Made by a program: the position numbers and the translations under genes. Of a DNA stretch of 64,000 nucleotides, positions 5,162 through 44,875 are shown piece after piece. Numbering within the stretch: position 1 is the stretch's first letter; each line of letters opens with the position of its first letter. Origin of the DNA: a virus. The notes beneath the pieces are model-generated. The model had not been told where the DNA came from, did no database searches, and worked only from the letters and a program-made list of their open reading frames with translations. The DNA lies in the IMG/VR virus record IMGVR_UViG_3300021961_000040, positions 1-64,000 of that record; one strand, 5' to 3'.

Positions 5162-5424
5162 ATCAAATTATTGAAATCTTATTTTTAAACAAATATAATA
5201 TTTTTATATTTGTAATGCAATACATTTCTTTAAGCTTAATTTTCTGGAGCATGCAAGCAAGTTTAAAAAAGAATACAGCAGAAATAATCAAGGCCATGTC
5301 GTCTCCAAGAAGAAAAAATAAGTTAAAGGAGGATCAAGATAATCCTTTGAAGACAATTTTTCTTTCTTTAGCATGGCCTGTTTTTGTTGCAAAGAATCTC
5401 AAAAATGAGCTCACAAAAAAGTAG
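5158..5424 (+). CDS. Small membrane protein
   Basis: An 88-residue protein with a hydrophobic N-terminal stretch (about residues 8-32, rich in Ile, Phe and Leu), then a basic segment and a second weaker hydrophobic patch near residue 70. Its start overlaps the previous stop (ATGA) and its end overlaps the next gene. Function unknown. Confidence 0.55.
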   Translation: MNQIIEILFLNKYNIFIFVMQYISLSLIFWSMQASLKKNTAEIIKAMSSPRRKNKLKEDQDNPLKTIFLSLAWPVFVAKNLKNELTKK

Positions 5425-6139
5425 CAAAATAATTCTTATCGAGTTTAAGTTTCTTACAGAAGAAAAAGAAGATGTCGAAGAGCTTTGCAAAAAAGGTTTA
5501 GTAGATCTTGGCTACTGTTTGAACGAGCTTAAAGGAAAACTTTCAAAAAAAATAGATGGGCAAGTTGAAAAATTTGAAGAACAATTTTTTAATAAACCTC
5601 CAAGTATAGAAGAAGCAGCAGAAAAAGCAAAAGCTGAAGCTTTAAAAGAAGATATTGAAGAAGAAACGGTATCCGCTGCTAAAAAAGAAAAATGGGCAAA
5701 GAAGTTATATAGAGAAATTGTTTTATTGACGCATCCAGATAAAACGTCAGCAATCCCAATACCTCAGATTGCTACAAAGCTTTTAAAATTTTATAACATT
5801 GCTGTAGACGCATACGCATCAGACGACTTTTCAGAGTTATTATATGTAGCAAATGAATTGGATTTAGAAGTACCAGATGACAAGGTTCAAGAGCATGTTG
5901 GACCTAAAGTAAAAATTCTAAGCGAAGAAATAGGAAAAAAGAAGGCAACTTTCCCATATCAGTGGGAAACAATGCCAGAAGATAAGCGCGGAACTATTTT
6001 AGAAAATTATCTTAAGTCAATTGGATACATCTTTGACAAAGAAGTAATTGAAGAAGTAGTTGAAAAAGTAAAAAGAATTAAGCGCAAACCTGGCACAAGG
6101 CCTGTAAATTATATAAGGAAAAGGATAAAATCACAATAA
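5405..6139 (+). CDS. J-domain (DnaJ-like) protein
   Basis: Around residues 98-112 the sequence reads L-Y-R-E-I-V-L-L-T-H-P-D-K-T, the helix II and HPD loop of J-domains, followed by a helix suited to helix III. J-domains use HPD to stimulate Hsp70 ATPase, so the protein probably recruits host DnaK. A long acidic coiled-coil-like region precedes the domain and a basic tail follows. I chose the ATG at 5405 over a TTG at 5384; both overlap the previous gene. No phage Hsp70 is in the window. The HPD motif is seen; Hsp70 recruitment is inferred. Confidence 0.65.
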   Translation: MSSQKSSKIILIEFKFLTEEKEDVEELCKKGLVDLGYCLNELKGKLSKKIDGQVEKFEEQFFNKPPSIEEAAEKAKAEALKEDIEEETVSAAKKEKWAKKLYREIVLLTHPDKTSAIPIPQIATKLLKFYNIAVDAYASDDFSELLYVANELDLEVPDDKVQEHVGPKVKILSEEIGKKKATFPYQWETMPEDKRGTILENYLKSIGYIFDKEVIEEVVEKVKRIKRKPGTRPVNYIRKRIKSQ

Positions 6140-6171
6140 GATAAATTTTAAAGTCTTAAAGTGAGGTTACA

Positions 6172-6999
6172 TTGCCAGAAGGTCCTGAGTGCGCAGCAAC
6201 TGCAAGATCAATTGATGAGTTTATGCGTGGTAAAAAAGTCTATAACGTAGAGATTCTTTCTGGAAGATACACTAAAAAAACGCCACCCGGATTTGAGAAA
6301 TTTAAGTCAATGATGCCGATTCATTGTACTGGCTGGTCAACTAAAGGAAAGTTTATCTACGGAATGTTTGGAGAACGAGTAGGTAAGCACTGTTTTATTT
6401 GGAACACACTGGGCATGACAGGGTATTGGTCTTTTAACCCACAAAAACATTCGCGTGTTCGTTTTGATTTTGAAGACGGTTCTTCTATTTGGTATACAGA
6501 CACTAGAAACTTTGGAACACTTACGTTTGCAATGACCTTTGAAGAAACTGAGAAAAAATTACTTGAACTTGGACCTGATCCGCTAACGCATGATATTCCA
6601 ATCGATCAATTCAGAACTCGGCTTTTTAAGAAAAACAAGAAAGGCGAAAAAACAATATGTGAAGCACTAATGAACCAGAAAACTATCGCCGGCGTAGGAA
6701 ACTACATTAAGGCAGAAGTTCTTTGGCTTTCTAAGGTATCACCTTTGCGAACAGTAAACTCTTTGACAGAAAAAGAGATAACTGACATCAGAGACAACAT
6801 TCAGTCTGTGATTAGGACATCATATCAAAATGGCGGTGCAACTATTAAAAGCTTTTACGGCGCTGATGGTTCAAAAGGTACATATTCTAGTAGATTTTTA
6901 GTGTACAATCAAAAGGTTGACCCTTATAATAATAATGTGATAAAAACTGCAACACCTGATGGCAGAACAACTCATTGGGTACCAGAAGTTCAAAAATAG
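6172..6999 (+). CDS. mutM: Formamidopyrimidine-DNA glycosylase (Fpg/Nei family)
   Basis: The protein starts (TTG) with P-E-G-P-E, placing the catalytic N-terminal proline and Glu exactly as in Fpg/Nei enzymes. A helix-two-turn-helix segment (N-Q-K-T-I-A-G-V-G-N-Y-I) lies near residue 165. At 275 residues it has family length. The C-terminal finger is unusual: the expected Cys pairs are absent (D-P-Y-N-N-N and H-W-V-P-E-V-Q stand in their places), while the DNA-contacting Gly-Arg-Thr-Thr is kept. It is therefore a zincless finger. The enzyme would remove oxidised bases and nick the strand. It opens the nucleotide-metabolism cluster. Confidence 0.85.
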   Translation: MPEGPECAATARSIDEFMRGKKVYNVEILSGRYTKKTPPGFEKFKSMMPIHCTGWSTKGKFIYGMFGERVGKHCFIWNTLGMTGYWSFNPQKHSRVRFDFEDGSSIWYTDTRNFGTLTFAMTFEETEKKLLELGPDPLTHDIPIDQFRTRLFKKNKKGEKTICEALMNQKTIAGVGNYIKAEVLWLSKVSPLRTVNSLTEKEITDIRDNIQSVIRTSYQNGGATIKSFYGADGSKGTYSSRFLVYNQKVDPYNNNVIKTATPDGRTTHWVPEVQK

Positions 7000-7609: not shown

Positions 7610-8523
7610 TGAATTTTGTCAAAATGATAAAGTCACAAGCTGATTATAATAATAAAAAGTTTGGTGACTCATTATCCGAAGAAGAAAAACGTAATATCAG
7701 TAGAGACTTGGCACTCAACTCATATAATTCTATTAATAAAATGATCGAAAAAATGAGAGCTACAAATGACGTGCCTCACGAAGATGATCTAGTGTATTCT
7801 TCTATTGACGTATTAAGATATGTCATGTCTATACTTAATCTTTGGAATGTAAACCCACAGGATGTCGCAACAGCCTTTCTAGAAAAAGATATTTTTCTTG
7901 ATGTCGATCATAAAATTAATACAAAAAAATGGGAAGGCCAACCTGTTATTATTGTAGATATCGATGATGTTCTTGTAGAATTCAGATCTACTTTTGCTAA
8001 TTTCTTAAAAGAAACATATTCATTAGATGCTGATATTGAAAGTGAGCAATACTTTTTTGTCAATGAAATTCTAGAAAATGGAAATCTTAATCCAGAAAAA
8101 GTATTTGACTCTTTTGTTAATACAAGAAGTTTTAGAACGCTTCCGCTTGTCGAAGATGCTGACGTGTATCTCAAAGAAATGAAGTCAAAAGGATACTGGA
8201 TTCAGCTTTTGACAGCTCGTCCAAAAGAAGAATTAAAAATCTTTTATGACACTTATTACTGGTTGGGATTAAGCAATATTCCTTTTGATAGAGTTGATTT
8301 TTCACCTGAAAAATTAAGATGGTGCATGAATTCAGAGTACTACGACTCAGGGGCTATTGCTTTTGCAATTGATGATTCTCCTAAACATGCTATGGAATAC
8401 GCAGGGCATGGTATAAGTGTAAAAGTACCATTAAAGAGTTATAATAAGAGTATTGAAAGCGAAAATATCACTTTCTACAATAACTTTAACGAACTACTAA
8501 GTGAGGAAAATAATGCCAGTTAA
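7609..8523 (+). CDS. 5'(3')-deoxyribonucleotidase-like HAD protein with N-terminal helical domain
   Basis: A GTG start shares its first base with the previous stop. Residues 1-105 are helical and resemble a partial dUTPase/MazG-type domain (V-Y-S-S-I-D-V-L-R-Y-V-M). From about residue 117 a HAD hydrolase follows, with motif I V-D-I-D-D-V-L, the threonine motif L-L-T-A-R-P, and the acidic motif I-D-D-S-P-K. This matches 5'(3')-deoxynucleotidases, which dephosphorylate dNMPs. The fusion order (pyrophosphatase-like then nucleotidase) suggests stepwise removal of unwanted dNTPs. The HAD assignment is firm and the N-terminal one is inference. Confidence 0.7.
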   Translation: MNFVKMIKSQADYNNKKFGDSLSEEEKRNISRDLALNSYNSINKMIEKMRATNDVPHEDDLVYSSIDVLRYVMSILNLWNVNPQDVATAFLEKDIFLDVDHKINTKKWEGQPVIIVDIDDVLVEFRSTFANFLKETYSLDADIESEQYFFVNEILENGNLNPEKVFDSFVNTRSFRTLPLVEDADVYLKEMKSKGYWIQLLTARPKEELKIFYDTYYWLGLSNIPFDRVDFSPEKLRWCMNSEYYDSGAIAFAIDDSPKHAMEYAGHGISVKVPLKSYNKSIESENITFYNNFNELLSEENNAS

Positions 8524-11846: not shown

Positions 11847-11875
11847 GTGTAAACTTAAGCCTCACATTTTATAAT
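11847..11875 (+). promoter_or_regulatory. Promoter-like GTGTAAA-16-TATAAT
   Basis: GTGTAAA at 11847-11853, 16 nt, then TATAAT at 11870-11875. It overlaps the terminator hairpin of the upstream gene and lies 30 nt before the first dnaE fragment start. Confidence 0.65.
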
Positions 11876-11904: not shown

Positions 11905-11982
11905 ATGAGTATTTTTGACATTAAAGCGCCAACTCGCTTCGTAGGTCTTCACGGCCACACAGGTTATTTAGTATCTTCGTGA
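11905..11982 (+). pseudogene. dnaE: First N-terminal fragment of DnaE (PHP domain start)
   Basis: An ORF of 25 codons with a good AGGAG site. It encodes the start of a DNA polymerase III alpha subunit (T-R-F-V-G-L-H-G-H-T-G-Y), including the PHP-domain H-x-H metal motif, then four unrelated residues and a stop. The rest of the protein resumes about 1 kb downstream, after a homing endonuclease gene. A diverged second copy of the same peptide lies at 12940-13032. It is either an orphan 5' piece left by the endonuclease insertion or a separately made peptide. Confidence 0.6.
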
Positions 11983-12013: not shown

Positions 12014-12940
12014 ATGCCAAATTATGTCAAAAACAAATGTGTAATATGTGAGTCTGAATTCGAAATACTATACAAGAAAAGATCGAAAAAAACATGTTCC
12101 AAAAAATGTAGTTACAAGCTTAGAAACAAGACTAGATACACAAAGCACGAACCACTTGAAAAAACATGCAAAACATGCAAAATTTGCAATCAAGTTTTTC
12201 AAGATACGTCTAAGAAAAAATTAGTTGATACATGCGCTGAATGTGTTCGCAAAAAAATGGTTTCAACAAGAAAAAACAAAGGTTCTTATACGAGAACTGA
12301 AGAACAAAATAAAAAATTATCTGAAACATTAAAAAAGAAGTATGAAGATGGATGGAACCCTAATACTAAAGAACATAAAGAAAAACTTTCAAAGATAATG
12401 AAAAATGCTTGGGCTTCTGGTGATTTTAAAAGAAAGTCTAAAGAAACATGTCTCCAAAAATATGGAACTGATCATTGGATGAAGACCGGTGAAGCAAAAC
12501 TAAAATTTTCTGATATTTTTACAGGTAGAAAGTTTTCTATAGAGACAAGAAAGAAAATGTCAAAATCTGCAGCCGAAAGAATTCGAACAGGAAAATGCAA
12601 ACTTAATTCAAATGGCAACGGATATTTTAGAAAAGACTTAAACTGCTATTTTAGAAGCAACTGGGAAGCAAATTTTGCTAGAATATGCAATTATGAAAAT
12701 TTAAATTGGCAATATGAACCTGATACGTTTTTTCTTAAAAGTGGAAAAACATACACGCCTGATTTTAAAATAGACAATGTGTACTACGAAATAAAAGGAA
12801 GCTGGCTCGGTGAAGCTTTTGAAAAGTTTCAAAATTTTAAATTAGAAAATAAAGAGTGCAAAATTGAGTTAGTAGATGGTAAAATATATCAGCTACTAAG
12901 AAGTAAATATAAAAACTTAATTAACTGGGAAGGTAAATAA
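12014..12940 (+). CDS. Homing endonuclease with zinc fingers, NUMOD-like repeats and PD-(D/E)xK-like end
   Basis: 308 residues. Residues 10-85 hold two Cys-rich knuckles (C-V-I-C ... C-S-K-K-C, and C-K-I-C ... C-A-E-C). Residues 95-200 are helical Lys-rich repeats like the NUMOD DNA-binding modules (E-E-Q-N-K-K-L-S-E-T-L-K-K-K-Y). The last part has F-R-S-N-W-E-A-N-F-A-R, then Y-T-P-D-F-K-I and Y-Y-E-I-K-G-S-W. That spacing (D ... E-x-K) fits a PD-(D/E)xK nuclease. It sits exactly between two copies of the DnaE N-terminal peptide, so I infer it inserted there by homing. No intron core is visible. Confidence 0.75.
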   Translation: MPNYVKNKCVICESEFEILYKKRSKKTCSKKCSYKLRNKTRYTKHEPLEKTCKTCKICNQVFQDTSKKKLVDTCAECVRKKMVSTRKNKGSYTRTEEQNKKLSETLKKKYEDGWNPNTKEHKEKLSKIMKNAWASGDFKRKSKETCLQKYGTDHWMKTGEAKLKFSDIFTGRKFSIETRKKMSKSAAERIRTGKCKLNSNGNGYFRKDLNCYFRSNWEANFARICNYENLNWQYEPDTFFLKSGKTYTPDFKIDNVYYEIKGSWLGEAFEKFQNFKLENKECKIELVDGKIYQLLRSKYKNLINWEGK

Positions 12941-13032
12941 TGACAAAAAGGAGTTCCGAGAACCCTGTGTCTATGATTGCTCCTCCGACTCGTTTCGTTG
13001 GGCTTCATGGGCACACAGGGTTCTCCTAATAA
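12940..13032 (+). pseudogene. dnaE: Second, recoded copy of the DnaE N-terminus ending in tandem ochre codons
   Basis: The ATG overlaps the endonuclease stop; another ATG at 12973 is possible. The frame encodes P-T-R-F-V-G-L-H-G-H-T-G-F-S and then TAA TAA (13027-13032). It stays in the same frame as the rest of dnaE, which resumes at once with S-V-F-D-G-L-G-Y-P. It matches the 11905 fragment residue for residue over T-R-F-V-G-L-H-G-H-T-G but differs at many third codon positions, so it is a diverged homologous segment and not a recent duplication. Confidence 0.6.
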
Positions 13033-13077
13033 TCTGTATTCGATGGACTAGGTTACCCTAAGGATCACATTGATTTC

Positions 13078-14664
13078 GTGCTAGAAAATGGCATGGATGC
13101 TTGGGGTTTAACAGATCACGGAAACGGTAGCGGTTTGGCACACGCTCACAAGCATGCAACCAAGATTCAAAAGAGTGGTCGCAAGTATCGACAGATTTAC
13201 GGTTGCGAGTTTTATTTTGTTCCTTCGCTTTCGGGCTGGAAAGAAGAATACGATCAGGCAAAAATCGATCGATCACTTGAAAAGCAAAAGGCACTTAAAG
13301 AAGATGATGACGCAGGTCACGTTATTGAGAACGAAGATGAAACCAAGACTGTTGATATTACAAAAGACGAATGGAAACGACGTTATCACCTGGTGATCAC
13401 TGCACAAAACCGTGAAGGTTTAGGCAATTTGTTTACTCTGATCAAACGTGCGTACACAGAGGGATTCTATCGGTATCCCCGAATTGACTTCGATCTTCTC
13501 AAGCAACACGGCAGAGGCCTCAACGTCTCAACTGCTTGCTTAGGCGGTATCTTCTCTAATCGAATCATGCGCGGAAATGCATTAGGCAAATCGGACGCCG
13601 AAATTCAAGCTGAACTTATGCAGCTGTCTGATCGCTTTGTTGATGCTGTAGGTGAAGAAAACTTCTATCTTGAGCTGCAGTTTAATCGACTTAAGCAGCA
13701 GCATCTTGTCAATCATCATCTTCTTCGTCATGCTGATGAAACAGGAATTAATCTTATCGCAACTCCTGATTCTCACTATTATAATCCAGATAAATGGGAA
13801 GCAAGAGAGCTATATAAAAAGCTAGGCTGGATGGGGAATGATCCTTCGCCACTTCCTGAATTTGAAGACTTGAAGTGTGAACTCTATCCTAAAAATGCAC
13901 AGCAAATGTGGGATGAATTTACAAGGCATTACGATGAATATAAAGAAACGTATGAAGGATATGAGCAAGTCGTTAAAGACTCAATTGAAAGAACCCATGA
14001 CATTGCTTGGGAGAAGTGCACTGACTGTTGGATTGATACTAGTGTTAAGCTACCTGATTTTAACAAACCAGATCAGACGGCTTTTCAGCAGCTGGCGCAA
14101 AAAGTTAAGACGGCTTTGGTAAAAGAAGGTCTTCATACTAAAGAAGAATACGTTGAACGCGCCAAAATGGAGTTGGCTGATATCAAGTTTCTTGGCTTTG
14201 AAAACTACTTCTTGGTTATGAACGAAGTCTTCCACAAGGCAGCTGATCATACATTGTTCGGAAGCGCCAGAGGAAGTGGCGGAGGTTCTCTAGTCAACTA
14301 TCTTCTTGGCATTACTCAAATCGATCCACTCAAATATGACCTTCTTTGGGAACGATTTCTTGGAAGGCACAGATGTGTAGATCCGACCACATATATCATC
14401 TCTAAAAGCGGCAAGAAGATGATCAAAGACGTTGAGCTTGGAGAAAAGGTTCTTACGCATACAGGTGAATTCAAGCCAGTAGTTGACAAAGAAGAAGCTG
14501 TCCATGACATGGCTATCAAGATTAAATTCAAAGGACAAGAAATCTTGTGTTCACCTAATCATAGATGGGTCATTGACAGGGGTGGAAAACAGATCGAAGT
14601 CATGGCTTGTCATCTTCTAAAAGGTGATAAACTAATTAAGTATTCTAATGGAAAGTGTCTATGA
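13078..14664 (+). CDS. dnaE: DNA polymerase III alpha subunit, N-terminal part fused to N-half of a split intein
   Basis: The frame is open from 13033, just after the tandem stops; GTG 13078 and ATG 13093 are the first usable internal starts. The product has the PHP domain (L-T-D-H-G-N, A-T-P-D-S-H-Y) and the first palm segment (G-S-A-R-G-S-G-G-G-S-L-V-N-Y-L-L-G-I-T), ending L-L-W-E-R-F-L-G-R-H-R. From Cys at 14374 it becomes intein. The partner half starts at 17968; joined, the exteins are about 1,135 residues, DnaE-sized. DnaE is the replicative polymerase. Without the upstream peptide the PHP H-x-H motif is missing. It is ATGA-coupled to the next ORF. Confidence 0.88.
   Translation: MLENGMDAWGLTDHGNGSGLAHAHKHATKIQKSGRKYRQIYGCEFYFVPSLSGWKEEYDQAKIDRSLEKQKALKEDDDAGHVIENEDETKTVDITKDEWKRRYHLVITAQNREGLGNLFTLIKRAYTEGFYRYPRIDFDLLKQHGRGLNVSTACLGGIFSNRIMRGNALGKSDAEIQAELMQLSDRFVDAVGEENFYLELQFNRLKQQHLVNHHLLRHADETGINLIATPDSHYYNPDKWEARELYKKLGWMGNDPSPLPEFEDLKCELYPKNAQQMWDEFTRHYDEYKETYEGYEQVVKDSIERTHDIAWEKCTDCWIDTSVKLPDFNKPDQTAFQQLAQKVKTALVKEGLHTKEEYVERAKMELADIKFLGFENYFLVMNEVFHKAADHTLFGSARGSGGGSLVNYLLGITQIDPLKYDLLWERFLGRHRCVDPTTYIISKSGKKMIKDVELGEKVLTHTGEFKPVVDKEEAVHDMAIKIKFKGQEILCSPNHRWVIDRGGKQIEVMACHLLKGDKLIKYSNGKCL
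14374..14661 (+). other. Split intein N-half (IntN)
   Basis: 96 residues at the C-terminus of the N-terminal DnaE piece. It begins with the splicing Cys (C-V-D-P-T-T-Y-I, block A), contains a D-V-E-L-G-E-K-V-L-T-H strand pair, and has block B as I-L-C-S-P-N-H-R-W-V-I with the conserved His. It stops where an endonuclease domain would begin in a full-length intein. It should pair with IntC at 17968-18105. Confidence 0.88.
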
Positions 14665-14858
14665 GTGAAAGATTTAATACATGCCCAAAATGTGGAGAAA
14701 TACAGTATGATGACAATATTGTCGAAGCTCACAATCCAGACACATGTGATGATAATATGAATGTTACACTTCGATGCAATAAATGTAATCACATCTGGGA
14801 GGGATGGGTAACTTCTCCTCACTATGAGAACATGCGATATCGAGGATGGATTCGATAA
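14661..14858 (+). CDS. Small zinc-ribbon protein
   Basis: 65 residues with two C-x-x-C pairs (C-P-K-C near residue 8 and C-N-K-C near residue 40), a zinc-ribbon layout followed by a W-E-G-W turn. Its ATG overlaps the stop of the polymerase-intein gene (ATGA). Function unknown; it lies inside the insertion that separates the intein halves. Confidence 0.6.
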   Translation: MSERFNTCPKCGEIQYDDNIVEAHNPDTCDDNMNVTLRCNKCNHIWEGWVTSPHYENMRYRGWIR

Positions 14859-14960
14859 AGTTTGCTACGCCAGTCTCTTTAACAAAGAGGCACATAATAT
14901 CATGTTGAAAAAATACATTAAGTAATAATTACTCCTAATAATTTAAATTACATTTATAAA

Positions 14961-15281
14961 ATGATCGACCTAGACAAACTTCTTGCGCTTGATAAGCCAG
15001 AAACTAAACACAGAATGATTGATTATCTCTTCGCAAGAATTGACGATCAACTCTTTACAGAGAACCACGATCCTATCCACGAATTTCTAAAAGAGATAGA
15101 TCTTGATAAGATCTCGATTCAACTTGGAGTGGGGATCCTGTCAATCACAAAACCTCTCGGTAGGTGTGATAGTCGCATTATCTTCTCTTCGAGATTTAGA
15201 AAAAAGATTACAAAAACAGAACCAAGAGAACGAGTAGAAAGGCTTTTGTCTGGACTAGAAGAGAAGGAGAGCGAAGAATGA
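14961..15281 (+). CDS. Unknown small protein
   Basis: 106 residues, helical N-terminus (L-D-K-L-L-A-L-D-K-P-E-T-K-H), a short beta segment in the middle and a charged tail. No family recognised. It overlaps the next tiny ORF by an ATGA junction, so four small genes here form one translational unit. The 100 nt before it hold a weak CTCTTT/AAAGAG hairpin and nothing else I can name. Confidence 0.5.
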   Translation: MIDLDKLLALDKPETKHRMIDYLFARIDDQLFTENHDPIHEFLKEIDLDKISIQLGVGILSITKPLGRCDSRIIFSSRFRKKITKTEPRERVERLLSGLEEKESEE

Positions 15282-15457
15282 TCACTATTAAAAAAGGTCA
15301 CCCACTTTATTCGTTGGTCAAAGCAATGAATGAGGATGAATATTCTGAACCCATTATTAAAGAGTCTGAAACGGGCGAAATTATAGTTTATACAGGGCTG
15401 GTTAAGAAGGGGCAAAAATATGTTCCCGGATCTTCCGGCCAATTGAAGGGAAAATGA
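15278..15457 (+). CDS. Unknown 59-residue protein
   Basis: Short ORF starting within the previous stop (ATGA) with a GGAG site. It encodes a basic protein with G-E-I-I-V-Y-T-G-L-V-K and a Gly/Ser-rich end. The tight coupling supports its being real. Function unknown. Confidence 0.5.
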   Translation: MITIKKGHPLYSLVKAMNEDEYSEPIIKESETGEIIVYTGLVKKGQKYVPGSSGQLKGK

Positions 15458-15500
15458 GTGGTAAAAATTGCATAAAATAAAAACACAAAGAAAGGTAATA

Positions 15501-15698
15501 ATGAATCCTTCATTGCAGCGTCGAATTGAGAAGTTGGGGTTTGTTCCCGGATCAAGAAATGCAACAGAGTGGGCTGTGTCTCAACTTGAGTTAATTCACA
15601 GTTTACTAACGTCAGAAAAGTATGTCATTCTTAATCTTGCAGATTTAAATCATCACGTCATAGAACTAAAAGAAATCTTGAAAAGAGAGGAAAAATGA
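15501..15698 (+). CDS. Unknown 65-residue protein
   Basis: ATG with an AAAGG site about 7 nt upstream; a TTG at 15468 is less likely. Helical protein with F-V-P-G-S-R-N-A-T-E-W-A and a C-terminal amphipathic helix. Its stop overlaps the next ATG. Function unknown. Confidence 0.55.
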   Translation: MNPSLQRRIEKLGFVPGSRNATEWAVSQLELIHSLLTSEKYVILNLADLNHHVIELKEILKREEK

Positions 15699-16055
15699 AA
15701 GCATCAAAAATTTTGGTACGTTATTTCGAAGAAAAACTTAAGCGCATTGATCCGAGTACTGTCAGTCTTAGTGAAGACGACTTCGAGGATGCACTTGATG
15801 AGTTTATGTACGAAAATCGTAAAGGTCATTTTCAAACCAATATTCGCAGTCTATTCTCGACATTATGAATCTTATAGCGTTGGCGTAAAAGTGAACATCC
15901 CGGAATACAACGGGTACATTGGTTGGACATATTGGTATGGCGGTGGGAAACATGGAAACCCAGAAGAGATTGAATGGGTAAGCGATGCATATTTTCTTAA
16001 TCTAGAAAAAGAAGAAGAAATTACGATTATTAAAAGAACTTTTTCTAAAGAGTAA
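15695..16055 (+). CDS. Small gene split by a +1 frameshift at a TTTT run
   Basis: The ATG at 15695 (overlapping the previous stop) opens a frame of 57 codons ending at 15868. A second frame, open from about 15747 to 16055, carries the better conserved-looking part (Y-S-R-H-Y-E-S-Y, then W-T-Y-W-Y-G-G-G-K-H-G). Removing one T from the run at 15829-15832 joins them smoothly (K-G-H-F-K-P-I-F-A-V-Y-S-R-H). The second frame has no good start of its own at the right place. It is either a programmed +1 shift, a decayed gene or a sequence error. Function unknown. Confidence 0.5.
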
Positions 16056-16165
16056 AGAGAGTGAAGGTAGAATTCGATGCGTGAATCTGCTTGTCCTGCT
16101 AAGATTAATCCTTCTTTAATTATTAGTAGAAGTTCTTTCTGCGTTATTCTTATTTTATTCCCCAT
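16056..16165 (-). pseudogene. Possible remnant of a tagged gene
   Basis: Read on the minus strand from an ATG at 16165, the sequence begins M-G-N-K-I-R-I-T-Q-K-E-L-L-L-I-I-K-E-G-L. This closely fits the N-terminal tag of the phage's tagged proteins, including an I-K-E|G site. After about 35 residues it runs into the antisense of the neighbouring gene. I infer a truncated leftover; it could be chance. Confidence 0.35.
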
Positions 16166-16270
16166 TCTTTGCTAATAACTATTTCATTCACATTCTATTG
16201 TTTGATCTTGCGTAAGAAAGTTGATTGTATATATTGTGTGTAAAAAAATAATATGCAATTGTGAAAGTCA

Positions 16271-17845
16271 TCAAAGTATAATTTCAAAAATTGAATTTGT
16301 ACATCCATAGATCTTAGAGACGTTAGCTTTTTTAGCAACGTCTTTTTCTGTTAGACCTCTAGCTTTGTCTGCTTTAAATTTAAATCTATCAAATCTTTCA
16401 CTGAAGTTTGTCCACCAAAATCTTTTAGCAGTTTCGCCTTTAAACTTCATAAATGATTTGTAACAATACCCACCAATTCTATTGTCTGAGTATGTGAAAA
16501 GAGAATTGGCATGATTTTCTTTAGCAATTTTTTTTGCCCCAGAGATTATTTTTGATACTCCTCCGTTAACGTGTGTATTTAAAGCAAAAGACATTCTAGC
16601 GATCTCTAAGACCTTTCTTTTAGAATTCCTTTTCCATCTAAGCGTACATGCCCCTACTATTTCATCTTCGTGTATAATCTTAATTCCAAAGCTTGCCGGA
16701 ACGTAACCGTCAATATGCGTTTTATCGATAAAGTCTTTTAGTTCAATTGGCATGCAATATTCAACTTTGCATTTTCTACCGTGAATTTTTTTGATATTTT
16801 TACTAGCCAGCTTGTGTGCAATCATGGACTTAACAATATTTTGTTTAAACTCCCACTCATCTTGAAATAGAAACCAAAGTTCAATATTTTTTTGCTTTGC
16901 AAGTTGTCGCTTCAGTTCAGATTTATTAGGCTTGCACCTACCAGAAGCTTCGCTATGCCAGTACAAACCATCACACTCAATGCCAAAGTTTTTCTCTGGT
17001 ACGAGTATGTCTATTTCCTTACCACTCAGTGCTAATCTATCATCAACTAAAATGTCAAATCCAAGTGTTTTTATAAAGTCATTAATTTCAAGTTGCCACT
17101 TGCTAGCACACGCCTCCCAGGGCGGGAAACATTTATGACATTTACTACCGTACGTAATCGAATGAAGTGTCTTTTTTGTTTGATGATTACATTCTAAACA
17201 TTCAATAATAATACTGTCTTGATTGCCGCCGTACTTAGACAAAAGTCTGAAGTTATACTTTCTAAGTCTTTCTTCAACGTCTTCACTTTTTAGAATTTTT
17301 GCATTCGATAACGCGATCTTATGCTCTTTTGATAAAGTTTTTCCTTTTTGTGTCAAACTAGACTTTTTAGATCTTTTTGCTATCACTTCGCTTGTCTCAG
17401 AAGTCTTTCCAACTGACCAATGCGAATTTTCTTTATAAAATGTTTTCAATGATTGTGAGATTTTCTTGCTGTTTTCTTTTATATAATCAGTATTTTCTTT
17501 TGTCTTTCCTGACGCGTGGTGACCGCTTTCTTTGTAGAATTTTTTCATTGAGTCACTTGCTTTTTTAATACTAACTGAGTTTTCTTTTGTTTTTCCTTTA
17601 TTCCAGGGAATATGATTGTTCTCTTTGTAGGCCTTTTTTCTACTGCACTTGCCACACAAATTTTTAAAACCTTTTTTCATACTAATAAACTTAAGTGGTT
17701 CTCCGCAATTGCATAATCTTGATGCAGCCGGATTAATTAAGAGGAAGATATCAGAAGCTTCTAGATTGTGTTCTTTTTTAGTGTGTATAGAAAGACCTCT
17801 GCTTGACTTAAAACATTTACTACAAACTGGACACTGAATACTCAT
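16271..17845 (-). CDS. Vsr-like (EDxHD-type) homing endonuclease with zinc finger and repeats
   Basis: 524 residues on the minus strand. It starts with a C2H2-like finger (C-P-V-C ... H-T-K-K-E-H) and a second Cys knuckle. Helical repeats containing Y-K-E-N-x-H and G-K-T-K-E-N follow (residues 75-175). Near residue 265-300 the nuclease core reads E-I-D-I-L-V-P-E and G-I-E-C-D-G-L-Y-W-H-S-E, matching the Vsr-related EDxHD homing nucleases known from fractured phage genes. The C-terminus has an acyltransferase-like segment and a short motif near Y-G-C-T-N-S. It lies between the two intein halves in opposite orientation, so it is probably the agent that split the polymerase gene. Confidence 0.8.
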   Translation of the reverse strand: MSIQCPVCSKCFKSSRGLSIHTKKEHNLEASDIFLLINPAASRLCNCGEPLKFISMKKGFKNLCGKCSRKKAYKENNHIPWNKGKTKENSVSIKKASDSMKKFYKESGHHASGKTKENTDYIKENSKKISQSLKTFYKENSHWSVGKTSETSEVIAKRSKKSSLTQKGKTLSKEHKIALSNAKILKSEDVEERLRKYNFRLLSKYGGNQDSIIIECLECNHQTKKTLHSITYGSKCHKCFPPWEACASKWQLEINDFIKTLGFDILVDDRLALSGKEIDILVPEKNFGIECDGLYWHSEASGRCKPNKSELKRQLAKQKNIELWFLFQDEWEFKQNIVKSMIAHKLASKNIKKIHGRKCKVEYCMPIELKDFIDKTHIDGYVPASFGIKIIHEDEIVGACTLRWKRNSKRKVLEIARMSFALNTHVNGGVSKIISGAKKIAKENHANSLFTYSDNRIGGYCYKSFMKFKGETAKRFWWTNFSERFDRFKFKADKARGLTEKDVAKKANVSKIYGCTNSIFEIIL

Positions 17846-17917
17846 TAAAACCTCTTGTTATGATCTTACTTTGTTTGCAATACTTATACACTGAAGTGAC
17901 TTGTTTATGAGATTTGA

Positions 17918-17946
17918 GTGTAAATATAAAAAAAAGTTAATATACT
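17918..17946 (+). promoter_or_regulatory. Promoter-like GTGTAAA-16-TATACT
   Basis: GTGTAAA at 17918-17924, 16 nt, then TATACT at 17941-17946. It lies just before the IntC-DnaE gene, giving the C-terminal polymerase half its own promoter after the endonuclease insertion. Confidence 0.65.
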
Positions 17947-17967
17947 ATTACTCTTAAAGGAGATAAA

Positions 17968-18105
17968 TTGCCTCAAGAATTAATTGAAATTGAAGAAATT
18001 GAGTTTATTCCTTACGCAAAAAGTATGATCGATATCGAGGTAGAAGATGACCATACTTTTTTTGTTGCGCAGGATGAAGAAAGCGATTTTGTATTGACAC
18101 ACAAT
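17968..18105 (+). other. Split intein C-half (IntC)
   Basis: 46 residues with block F (M-I-D-I-E-V-E-D-D-H-T-F-F-V) and block G (V-L-T-H-N), ending in the conserved His-Asn pair before a +1 Thr. Block F aligns well with other DnaE and phage split inteins. Confidence 0.88.
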
Positions 18106-20217
18106 ACAAGCTGGCCAGATATTGATTCTGATGCAGGCGACCGCGATGCGCTTATCAATGCAGCCCGTGAACTTTACGGTTTTGAAAGTGTAATCCCTGT
18201 TTCGAATTTCAATACCCTGAAACTTAAGTCACTCGTTAAAGACATTGCTAAGTTCTATCAAATTGACTTTGCTGAGGTCAACAAGATGACTGGGCCGCTT
18301 CAAGACGAAGTCATGGCGCAAGCACGTGATGAAAACACTGAGAAGTCTGTGTTCGTTCTTAAACATGAAGATTGTATGCAGTACTCCAAGGGTTATCGAA
18401 CCTTTATGGAAAAATATCCAAAGGTAAAAGACCATATCGAAGAGCTATTTATGCAAAACCGCTCTATTGGTCGACATGCAGGTGGAGTTATTATCGGACC
18501 AGCAGATGCTTTGGCATCTTCGATGCCTATTATCGGTGTTCGAGGTGAATTGCAAACTCCTTGGACAGAAGGAATGAACTTTAGAAACTTGGAAGATAAC
18601 GGGTTTATTAAGTTTGACTTCTTGGGTTTGACGCTCCTTAAAGATGTAGAAAACTGTATTTCTAGAATTCTTACAAGAGAAACAGGAAAAGTTCCTTCAT
18701 TCCTTGAAATCAGAGACTGGTTTGACAAGCACTTAAACTGTCGTTTTGTTGAACAGGACGACCCAAAGGTCTGGGCACATGTTTATCATCAAAGACGAAA
18801 AGTTGGCGTTTTCCAGTTTACTGCTGAAGGCGCACGACGCTTCTGTGAGGATGCAAAGCCTACATCTATTATTGAGCTTGCTGCTTTGACAGCGATTTAT
18901 CGCCCAGGCCCTTTGAAAGCTAACGTCCATAAAAAATATGTCAATGACAAACAAAGAGCAGATCAAATTGAATATGCACATCCTATTATCAAAGAAGTTC
19001 TAGGGCCTACTTTTGGACATGTAACTTTCCAAGAGCAGTTCATGATTCTTGCACAGAAACTTGCAGGATTTTCTCCAGGAGAATCTGATAAGCTTAGAAA
19101 GACACTTGTCAAAAAATCACTTGATACAATCGGAAAGAAAGGTGATGAGCGCGAAGAGGCAAGACTCAAGTTTGTAAAAGGTTCTTGGGAAATCAATGGA
19201 GTACCCGAGTCTGTTTCCCAAGAACTTTGGGAAAGAATTGAGTTCTTCTCGGTATATGGATTTAACCTTTCCCATGCAGTTGCATATGCAATTGGTTCAT
19301 ATTATTCAGCTTGGCTTCACACATATTATGAGACTGACTGGCTTGCTACAATCCTTCAGTCTGAAAACGGCAATCCTAAAAACTTGGCAAAGGCAATTTC
19401 TGAAATCAAAGCAATGGGCTATAGTGTTAGTACTCCTGATGTTAACGAGTCAGGTCTTGAGTGGGTATGGTCTAAAAACAAGAAGTCGTTTATTCCACCT
19501 CTTACATCAATCAAGGGTTTAGGCAAGAATGCTGTTAAGGAAATTCTTCAAAATCGTCCTTATACTTCTCTTAGTCAGATGCTGTATGACGAAAACGGCA
19601 AATGGTATCACTCTAAGCTTAACAAAACAGGTTTTGCCGCACTTTGTATGACAGAGTCACTTGATGCTCTTGAGGAAATGTGGAAAGGTGAAATCCAAAA
19701 CCACCGACAGCTTCATGATATTATTATTGAAAATTATAACACTCTCAAGAAAAGCAAATTTGGTATGACACTTAAACAAGCAGAAAAGCAAGATGCTGAT
19801 CCTATCCTACCTCAGCTTATTATGCAGACGTCAGGCACAGAAGACTGGACACGCATCGAAAAACTTCAGTTGTATCAAGATATGTGTTCTGCAACTCGTG
19901 ATGACTTGGCATTTCCAGAAGAACTGATGACCAAAATTCGAAGTGCTAATGTAAAATCAGTCTTGCAAATGGATCCAGGAGAGAAAGGTATCTCTTGGTT
20001 TTGTGTTGTCGAAACAATTAAAAAGACTACAAAAAATAAAAAGGTCTTCTATCGTGTTAAGATTACAGATGAAGAAAGCAATTCTGGCTGGCTTCGTGTC
20101 TGGGGAGAAGTTCCAAGCTCTATGGAGCCTTATACAATATGGTTAGCCAATGCCTCAAATGACCCCAACTGGGGAGCTTCGACAAACTCTGCAAAAATCC
20201 GCCCACTTGTCAAGTAA
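17968..20217 (+). CDS. dnaE: C-half of split intein fused to DNA polymerase III alpha C-terminal part
   Basis: TTG start after an AAAGGAG site. Residues 1-46 are IntC, ending T-H-N. The next residue, Thr, begins the C-extein T-S-W-P-D-I-D-S-D, which holds the catalytic palm aspartates of DnaE. The following 703 residues cover palm, fingers (G-R-H-A-G-G-V-I-I-G, Y-R-P-G-P-L), a helix-hairpin-helix (I-K-G-L-G-K-N-A-V) near residue 515 and an OB-like C-terminus. Splicing with the N-terminal half would rebuild the active site across the junction, so the polymerase should be inactive until spliced. It overlaps a small ORF downstream. Confidence 0.88.
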   Translation: MPQELIEIEEIEFIPYAKSMIDIEVEDDHTFFVAQDEESDFVLTHNTSWPDIDSDAGDRDALINAARELYGFESVIPVSNFNTLKLKSLVKDIAKFYQIDFAEVNKMTGPLQDEVMAQARDENTEKSVFVLKHEDCMQYSKGYRTFMEKYPKVKDHIEELFMQNRSIGRHAGGVIIGPADALASSMPIIGVRGELQTPWTEGMNFRNLEDNGFIKFDFLGLTLLKDVENCISRILTRETGKVPSFLEIRDWFDKHLNCRFVEQDDPKVWAHVYHQRRKVGVFQFTAEGARRFCEDAKPTSIIELAALTAIYRPGPLKANVHKKYVNDKQRADQIEYAHPIIKEVLGPTFGHVTFQEQFMILAQKLAGFSPGESDKLRKTLVKKSLDTIGKKGDEREEARLKFVKGSWEINGVPESVSQELWERIEFFSVYGFNLSHAVAYAIGSYYSAWLHTYYETDWLATILQSENGNPKNLAKAISEIKAMGYSVSTPDVNESGLEWVWSKNKKSFIPPLTSIKGLGKNAVKEILQNRPYTSLSQMLYDENGKWYHSKLNKTGFAALCMTESLDALEEMWKGEIQNHRQLHDIIIENYNTLKKSKFGMTLKQAEKQDADPILPQLIMQTSGTEDWTRIEKLQLYQDMCSATRDDLAFPEELMTKIRSANVKSVLQMDPGEKGISWFCVVETIKKTTKNKKVFYRVKITDEESNSGWLRVWGEVPSSMEPYTIWLANASNDPNWGASTNSAKIRPLVK

Positions 20218-44442: not shown

Positions 44443-44875
44443 GGGCCTGACACGGTTTCGACGGGGTAGAATCAAGGGAGAGTGCAAGCAGGAAAGATAC
44501 ATCCTTAAAAGTTCAAAAACAATAGTTGCAAACAACAACACACACTTCGACGCAGTCGCACTCGCGGCGTAATCGGGTGGCCGCTTAAAGCCATCTATCC
44601 AATTTAAGCAAAACAACAGATAAGTTGTAAAAATCGAAATGGTTACCCAATATTGCTGCGGTGGTTAGACAGACAGGCTTAAATCGTACAATCTGGTGGC
44701 GCTTAGAAAGAAATTGCTAAGACAGTCAGATCAATATTGGTGGAGCGCAACAGGTCGGTAAGCGCAGGGAAAACCGACTATCTTTTCTAATTTGTGATAG
44801 TAAATTAGACAAGCTTGTGAATGACTCAAACTAAGACTGCTGCGGAAGCTGGTTCGACTCCAGCCAGGTCCACTA
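44443..44875 (+). ncRNA. ssrA: tmRNA, tag ANNNTHFDAVALAA
   Basis: The 5' end GGGCCTGACACGGTTTCGAC and the 3' end with GGTTCGACTCC form the tRNA-like domain; GGGCCUG pairs with CAGGUCC at 44865-44871. The tag ORF is 44528-44572: GCA resume codon, peptide ANNNTHFDAVALAA, TAA. It ends in A-L-A-A like other SsrA tags, so tagged proteins should go to ClpXP. The encoded 3' end is ACTA, so CCA would have to be added. It lets the phage rescue stalled ribosomes, perhaps with altered tag choice. Confidence 0.95.

Follow-up and report, generated by a model that had tools for sequence, protein, structure and literature searches.

The DNA polymerase gene dnaE of an uncultured phage carries two homing-endonuclease insertions and, judging from its sequence, quite probably tolerates them through two different repairs, namely, trans-splicing of the protein and bypassing by the ribosome. 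The gene lies within the stretch of DNA analyzed here (the window), which comprises positions 1-64,000 of the 108,074-base IMG/VR virus record IMGVR_UViG_3300021961_000040. DnaE is the sole DNA polymerase family detected in the entire record, in which neither Pol A nor Pol B was found, and it is thus the only replicative polymerase seen. A break in the palm domain is probably mended by protein splicing, a known kind of repair, and a break near the 5′ end is apparently mended by ribosomes that hop past a stop codon, a mechanism that would be seldom encountered. An earlier sequence-only reading of this DNA had recognized the split-intein "fractured gene" in the palm, the location of its break, and the separate promoters of its halves, all of which are supported; it overlooked the 5′ break, and its start and length of the polymerase were wrong.

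The 5′ break and its putative hop element

In fact, dnaE begins upstream of position 13078, which the sequence-only reading had taken as the start of the N-terminal half. The first PHP motif, F-x-x-L-H-x-H-T, is encoded there and is interrupted between its Phe and Ser codons by a cassette carrying an endonuclease gene, HEG1, that is absent in uninterrupted relatives. The full product would therefore comprise ~1,178 amino acids (aa; 29+446+703) rather than the ~1,135 residues first proposed. The relatives, designated L004-L196, are contigs fetched by successive scans, the first of them of IMG/VR with the C-extein of the palm intein; close ones with uninterrupted genes begin MNIFDMKAPTRFVGLHGHTGFSVFDGLGYP or similar. 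The features of the 5′ break are as follows, all on the + strand, with the basis of each assignment in brackets.

11905..11982: copy 1 of the dnaE first exon (MSIFDIKAPTRFVGLHGHTGY...), truncated by the HEG1 cassette (comparison with relatives)
12014..12940: HEG1, a 308-aa PD-(D/E)xK-like homing endonuclease (domain and PHROG search, relatives)
12940..13026: copy 2 of the first exon, MTKRSSENPVSMIAPPTRFVGLHGHTGFS, recoded, with take-off codon TCC at 13024-13026 (sequence, relatives)
12958..12970: 5′ arm of a hairpin, GAGAACCCTGTGT (stem search, covariation)
13013..13025: 3′ arm of the hairpin, ACACAGGGTTCTC, which extends to the second base of the take-off codon (stem search, covariation)
13027..13032: putative bypassed gap TAATAA, followed by landing codon TCT at 13033-13035 (sequence, relatives)

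The start codon of copy 2 overlaps the stop codon of HEG1 (TAATG), and the copy ends with ...HTGF-Ser(UCC). Beyond the gap, the native TCT GTA TTC GAT resumes as Ser(UCU)-VFDGL. Copy 1 diverges after HTGY, where the uninterrupted relative L005 reads MSIFDIKPPTRFVGLHGHTGFSVFDG, and may be a relic or a leader open reading frame (ORF) that aids HEG1 translation. In the window, L043, L048, L058, L103, and L105, copy 1 ends at the insertion point or a few codons from it.

This arrangement suggests that the HEG1 cassette cut dnaE between the two codons and supplied its own start codon and recoded exon. Ribosomes would read the exon copy to its last Ser codon (UCN), meet the stop codon directly after it, and detach; the peptidyl-tRNA(Ser) would then re-pair with the native Ser codon 7-11 nucleotides (nt) downstream. 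The product would read ...HTGF-S-VFDGL... as in uninterrupted relatives, with HTGFSVFDGLGYPK as the peptide spanning the gap. By folding again behind the ribosome, the hairpin that terminates at the take-off codon would drive it onward. The re-created target site would stay interrupted by the gap, such that the endonuclease would spare its own carrier.

One line of support comes from recurrence. Broader scans found the element, consisting of the exon copy, a UCN codon, a stop codon, a 4-8 nt gap, and the native codon, on 15 contigs, among which HEG1 identity falls to ~47%. Their junctions, written as take-off codon, gap, and landing codon, are listed below.

Window: TCC, TAATAA, TCT
L006: TCG, TAATAATA, TCA
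L019: TCT, TGAAAAA, TCT
L043: TCG, TAGATA, TCT
L048, L058, L059, L060, L103, L105, and L115: TCC, TAGGTA, TCT
L080: TCC, TAAGTAA, TCT
L089: TCC, TGAATAA, TCT
L106: TCG, TAAAGTT, ACG
L111: TCG, TAGC, TTG

In every hop locus the stop codon, be it UAA, UAG, or UGA, stands directly 3′ of the take-off codon. The implied hops of 7, 9, 10, or 11 nt lead into all three relative frames and restore the native residue order every time; all run from UCN to UCN except in L106 (UCG-ACG) and L111 (UCG-UUG). A change of genetic code was rejected: all three stop codons follow the take-off codon, so reassignment of a single stop provides no explanation, and the genes end normally. L006 has the same 5′ arrangement without the intein, and L019, in which HEG1 has dwindled to 28 codons, retains the exon copy, hairpin, and gap alongside a split intein.

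Where a HEG1-like gene immediately precedes an intact dnaE (L113, L114, L116, and L117), the stop and the hairpin are both missing, and HEG1-family loci in other genes lack the element, the stems of L121 and L123 having no stop after them. The patterns ACACAGG..TAATAAT and CCTGTGTC..CTCC matched only the L006 and L019 contigs. The genome collection held no useful HEG1 relative, and no full-length HEG1 was found in cultured phages, in which the best match covers 41% of the query. Rfam models of group I and II introns were unmatched around HEG1 and between the dnaE halves, in the window and in related loci; a group I intron at the 5′ break was rejected on this ground and for want of a consistent exon joint.

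A second line of support is the hairpin. In each element there is a stem of 10-13 base pairs, its 3′ arm stopping 0-3 nt short of the end of the take-off codon, with a single G-U pair in L106 and one terminal G-U in L006 as imperfections. Shuffled sequences average ~4 pairs and match the actual stem in no more than 1/1000 cases, and uninterrupted dnaE genes yield 4-7. Across six distinct stem rows, 9 of the 13 pairs are changed on both sides, which none of 500 shuffles equaled, and sliding the stem partner by 1-3 columns abolishes the covariation. As the left arm belongs to an N-terminal extension that uninterrupted genes lack, it has tracked the right arm. The hairpin was rejected as a transcription terminator, there being no T-run after it.

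Restart, recoding, or bypassing

The most durable alternative, which we regard as unlikely, holds that the stop merely terminates translation of the exon copy. DnaE would then restart downstream (at GTG 13078 or ATG 13093 in the window) without the first PHP motif, or a peptide of 26-35 aa and the remainder would function as two chains, for which the working split phage polymerase 43A/43B offers a precedent (PMC2988022). Start codons suited to a restart do exist in some loci: in-frame GTG or ATG codons are present in the window and L019, with GTG at codon 15 after landing in both; L060, L105, and L115 have TTG at codon 16; and L080 and L089 have ATG at codon 2 after landing. Five other loci (L006, L043, L048, L058, and L103) argue against it, since the 20-22 codons from the landing codon to the first conserved in-frame ATG contain no ATG, GTG, or TTG, with only a CTG at codon 5 in L058, and yet are strongly conserved. 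The ratio of nonsynonymous to synonymous change (pN/pS) over this segment is 0-0.14; corresponding values for the "later 300 codons" of pairs with L019 are inflated by an uncorrected indel and were left out. A restart also leaves unexplained why the take-off hairpin is conserved and why the copy ends on the exact Ser codon where the native frame resumes.

Ordinary recoding fitted to each locus, with stop readthrough across in-frame gaps and +1 or -1 frameshifting elsewhere, strikes us as improbable. The gaps of the window, L043, and the L048 type are indeed in frame (9 nt), and on paper a +1 shift would work in L019, L106, and L111 and a -1 shift in L006. However, three different mechanisms would be required for one conserved element. 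Readthrough would have to cross two consecutive UAA codons in the window and fails where the frame changes, a +1 shift in L080 or L089 runs into a second stop, and all variants insert extra residues into a conserved motif. Programmed ribosome bypassing, or a "stop-hop", over the scar of a homing cassette is thus the best single explanation of the 5′ element, since one mechanism would fit all loci whatever the frame.

Several observations weigh against bypassing. The window record is a metagenomic contig. Codon matching is imperfect, as the landing codons of L106 and L111 (ACG and UUG) are not UCN, and the Ser match between take-off and landing could reflect only shared descent from the native codon. 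Each stem is the best pick for its sequence, for which the fairer control is shuffles that repeat that pick, as done for stem length. No conserved nascent-peptide signal was seen, and the N-terminal extensions are unlike between clades. Finally, part of the conservation seen as low pN/pS after the stop may be older than recent homing, given that within the L048 group synonymous differences are fewer in the exon copies than in the codons beyond the gap. Between the window and L006, ~14 of 20 synonymous sites in the exon copy have changed with the hop preserved, which argues for long maintenance.

The split intein in the palm

The second insertion breaks dnaE at 14373/18106, three residues N-terminal of PDIDSD. 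Its components, with strands and the basis of each assignment, are as follows.

11847..11875 (+): promoter motif GTGTAAA-N16-TATAAT upstream of dnaE (motif count)
13033..14373 (+): rest of the N-extein, with the PHP domain and the start of the palm, ending ...LLWERFLGRHR (domain match, relatives alignment)
14374..14661 (+): IntN, 96 aa, CVDPTTY...KCL, with C1 and the CSPNH block B (relatives, intein alignment)
14655..16055 (+): five or six small ORFs, the first zinc-ribbon-like and the last PHROG 25120 (ORF list, PHROG search)
16271..17845 (-): HEG2, a Hef-like homing endonuclease of 524 aa (PHROG match)
17918..17946 (+): promoter motif ahead of the IntC half (motif count)
17968..18105 (+): IntC, 46 aa, ending FVLTHN, with a TTG start and AAAGGAG upstream (sequence, relatives)
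18106..20217 (+): C-extein TSWPDIDSD..., with palm, fingers, and helix-hairpin-helix (domain match, Taq DnaE alignment)

The sequence and its translations contain the end of the N-half, IntN, IntC, and the start of the C-half as the sequence-only reading had described them, with Thr as the +1 residue, and when aligned with Taq DnaE (2hpi), the joint falls just before the catalytic aspartates, three residues ahead of the catalytic PDID. In the proposed mechanism, a foreign block containing HEG2 lies between the two parts of the intein, each polymerase half is expressed from a promoter of its own, and trans-splicing joins RFLGRHR to TSWPDIDSD. Both proposed promoters, at 11847 and 17918, are real matches to the motif GTGTAAA-N16-TATA(A/C)T, which occurs five times in the 64 kb (at 8417, 11847, 17918, 39147, and 50141) against 0.02 expected and is probably a phage promoter. 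One copy of it also lies between HEG1 and the recoded exon in cassettes of the L043/L048 type.

The scan with the C-extein returned 15 relatives, 79-93% identical in all but one case, and in 14 of the 15 the exteins are directly fused at the exact break point; the fifteenth, L017 (60% identity), has a 3-nt offset at the joint, seen in the alignment only. In two later scans, ~15 contigs proved to carry the intein at this RFLGRHR|TSWPDID site, in the graded states listed here.

One open frame (cis): L096
IntN and IntC adjacent in separate frames, without endonuclease: L065, L185, L089
Split around a small endonuclease: L019, L055, L060, L189, L191, L094, L196
Split around other cargo: window (HEG2 and small ORFs), L190, L194
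Locus cut off by the contig end: L187

A single-sequence AlphaFold model of the intein was poor (predicted local distance difference test, pLDDT, 45). The model used instead is alignment-based and depicts the L096 cis intein, with the window halves included in the alignment (pLDDT 93.4). It matches the gp41-1 intein 6riz with template-modeling (TM) scores of 0.80/0.88 and an E-value of 3e-8; other inteins were also matched. As modeled on this cis relative, the intein is a confident HINT fold. A sequence search of the intein with phmmer matched 9hth and 6riz, the Pfam scores in the window lying below the curated cut-off, and no DnaE intein of this kind was found in cultured phages.

Two remaining explanations, one for each break, fare poorly. 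That the palm halves work unspliced as a two-subunit polymerase is very improbable. Unligated split enzymes do have precedents in Aeh1 NrdA and phage 25 gp43 (PMC2988022), but the splicing residues C1, CSPNH, THN, and Thr+1 are conserved among the aligned relatives, the HINT fold is confident, and an unremoved IntN extension would adjoin the active site. We give almost no credence to the 5′ interruption as a decaying pseudogene end or an assembly error: the contigs are metagenomic, but 15 of them share the architecture despite HEG1 divergence, downstream frames of up to ~1,170 codons are open and conserved, and the stem covaries.

The ~3.3 kb between the halves carries the opposite-strand endonuclease, as the sequence-only reading had it, together with five to six small ORFs in place of its four or five genes. 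HEG2 matches a PHROG homing endonuclease (E=7e-51). As a candidate for an EDxHD-type (Vsr-like) active site, the motif IECDGLYWH can be read by eye in its translation; among domain models there is only a weak MTES_1575 match, and none to Vsr in the domain-model search of the window. The small ORFs had no relatives in the loci fetched up to that comparison and were rejected on this ground as known cargo. Other cargo occupies the same intein site elsewhere: L194 has two ORFs between the halves (5272-6701), the second resembling by eye a Dam-like DNA methyltransferase (...YADPPYID...), and L190 has a 328-aa opposite-strand ORF in place of the endonuclease (5299-6282, -).

The dnaE genes of related phages are broken at further sites, namely at aa ~193 (L185, L194), ~435 (L089, L187, L101), ~475 (L095), ~588 (L190, L185), and ~857 (L032, L051, L055, L189), with intein-like ends and an endonuclease ORF where these were read. 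As some genes have two or three breaks at once, one DnaE in some relatives may be assembled from three or more chains through different split inteins. Elsewhere in the window, at 44443-44875 (+), lies a phage tmRNA (Rfam 82.5 bits, E 1.7e-30) that ARAGORN did not report, with an apparent tag of ANNNTHFDAVALAA.

Relation to known systems

Dassa et al. 2009 (doi 10.1093/nar/gkp095, cited in PMC7090010) reportedly described "fractured genes", in which split inteins occur together with Vsr-like homing endonucleases. By its architecture the palm locus is a new example of this kind: a conserved enzyme gene is broken at the exact intein site, relatives are uninterrupted, and a free-standing endonuclease lies between the halves. 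As in those loci, a phage DNA-synthesis gene is split and control elements have been brought along. Unlike them, the gene here is dnaE, broken three residues ahead of a catalytic Asp motif; the same site is found empty, cis, split without an endonuclease, and split with several kinds of cargo; and the same gene appears to undergo a second, non-intein repair. The series of empty, cis, split-adjacent, and endonuclease-split sites comprises the states expected if endonuclease genes that break cis inteins yield split inteins, and it supplies new candidate split inteins.

On balance, we favor the view that the HEG1 cassette spreads among dnaE genes of uncultured phages by means of a recoded exon and a hairpin-driven stop-hop, and represents, with six distinct stem sequences that reveal its requirements, a second natural class of phage bypassing beside T4 gene 60, in a gene that is also trans-spliced and in some relatives probably made as at least three polypeptides. 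The well-studied programmed bypassing of bacteria and phages rests almost wholly on T4 gene 60, in which a 50-nt gap separates GGA take-off and landing codons, a stop follows the take-off codon, a 5′ stem-loop folds behind the ribosome, and the nascent peptide provides a signal (PMC11194080, PMC5009743). That gap is thought to have protected against a nearby endonuclease (PMC5009743). Gene 60 likewise has a homing endonuclease, mobA, beside the broken gene (PMC5009743, PMC11194080, PMC2988022), and it shares with the present element the stop right after take-off, the 5′ hairpin, and, as predicted here, a product equal to that of the uninterrupted gene. In contrast to gene 60, the gap here is 4-8 nt and has no take-off stem-loop of its own, the codons are UCN, the hairpin arm reaches or directly adjoins the take-off codon itself, the cassette contains a duplicated, recoded first exon, the stem occurs in six distinct sequences, and no KKYK-like peptide was seen. 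The element should be called gene-60-like rather than a member of the gene 60 class, because the gap-length feature fails and the nascent-peptide feature is unproven.

Synthetic stop-hops in Escherichia coli (Weiss et al. 1987) work with 9 nt encoding one residue (PMC5009743). As in those constructs, matched codons flank a stop in the present element, and 9 nt would encode one residue; according to the same review, natural in-frame stop-hops were not known (PMC5009743). No published description of the present element was found in the partial set of papers covered. If it is genuine, this short, variable, and naturally replicated family would permit a direct test of the minimal needs of bypassing, namely, matched codons, stop, and hairpin position, and would support the notion that recoding sites are scars which homing endonucleases leave behind and which guard against self-cleavage.

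The remaining components also have recognizable kin. The intein shares the HINT fold of the gp41-1 split intein (6riz), from which it differs in sequence (26% identity), in the gene that hosts it, and in its site of insertion. The relationship of HEG2 to Hef-like phage homing endonucleases (PHROG 3339) spans almost the entire protein, with 29% identity to a Pseudomonas jumbo-phage protein, and unlike these HEG2 resides inside a split intein on the opposite strand.

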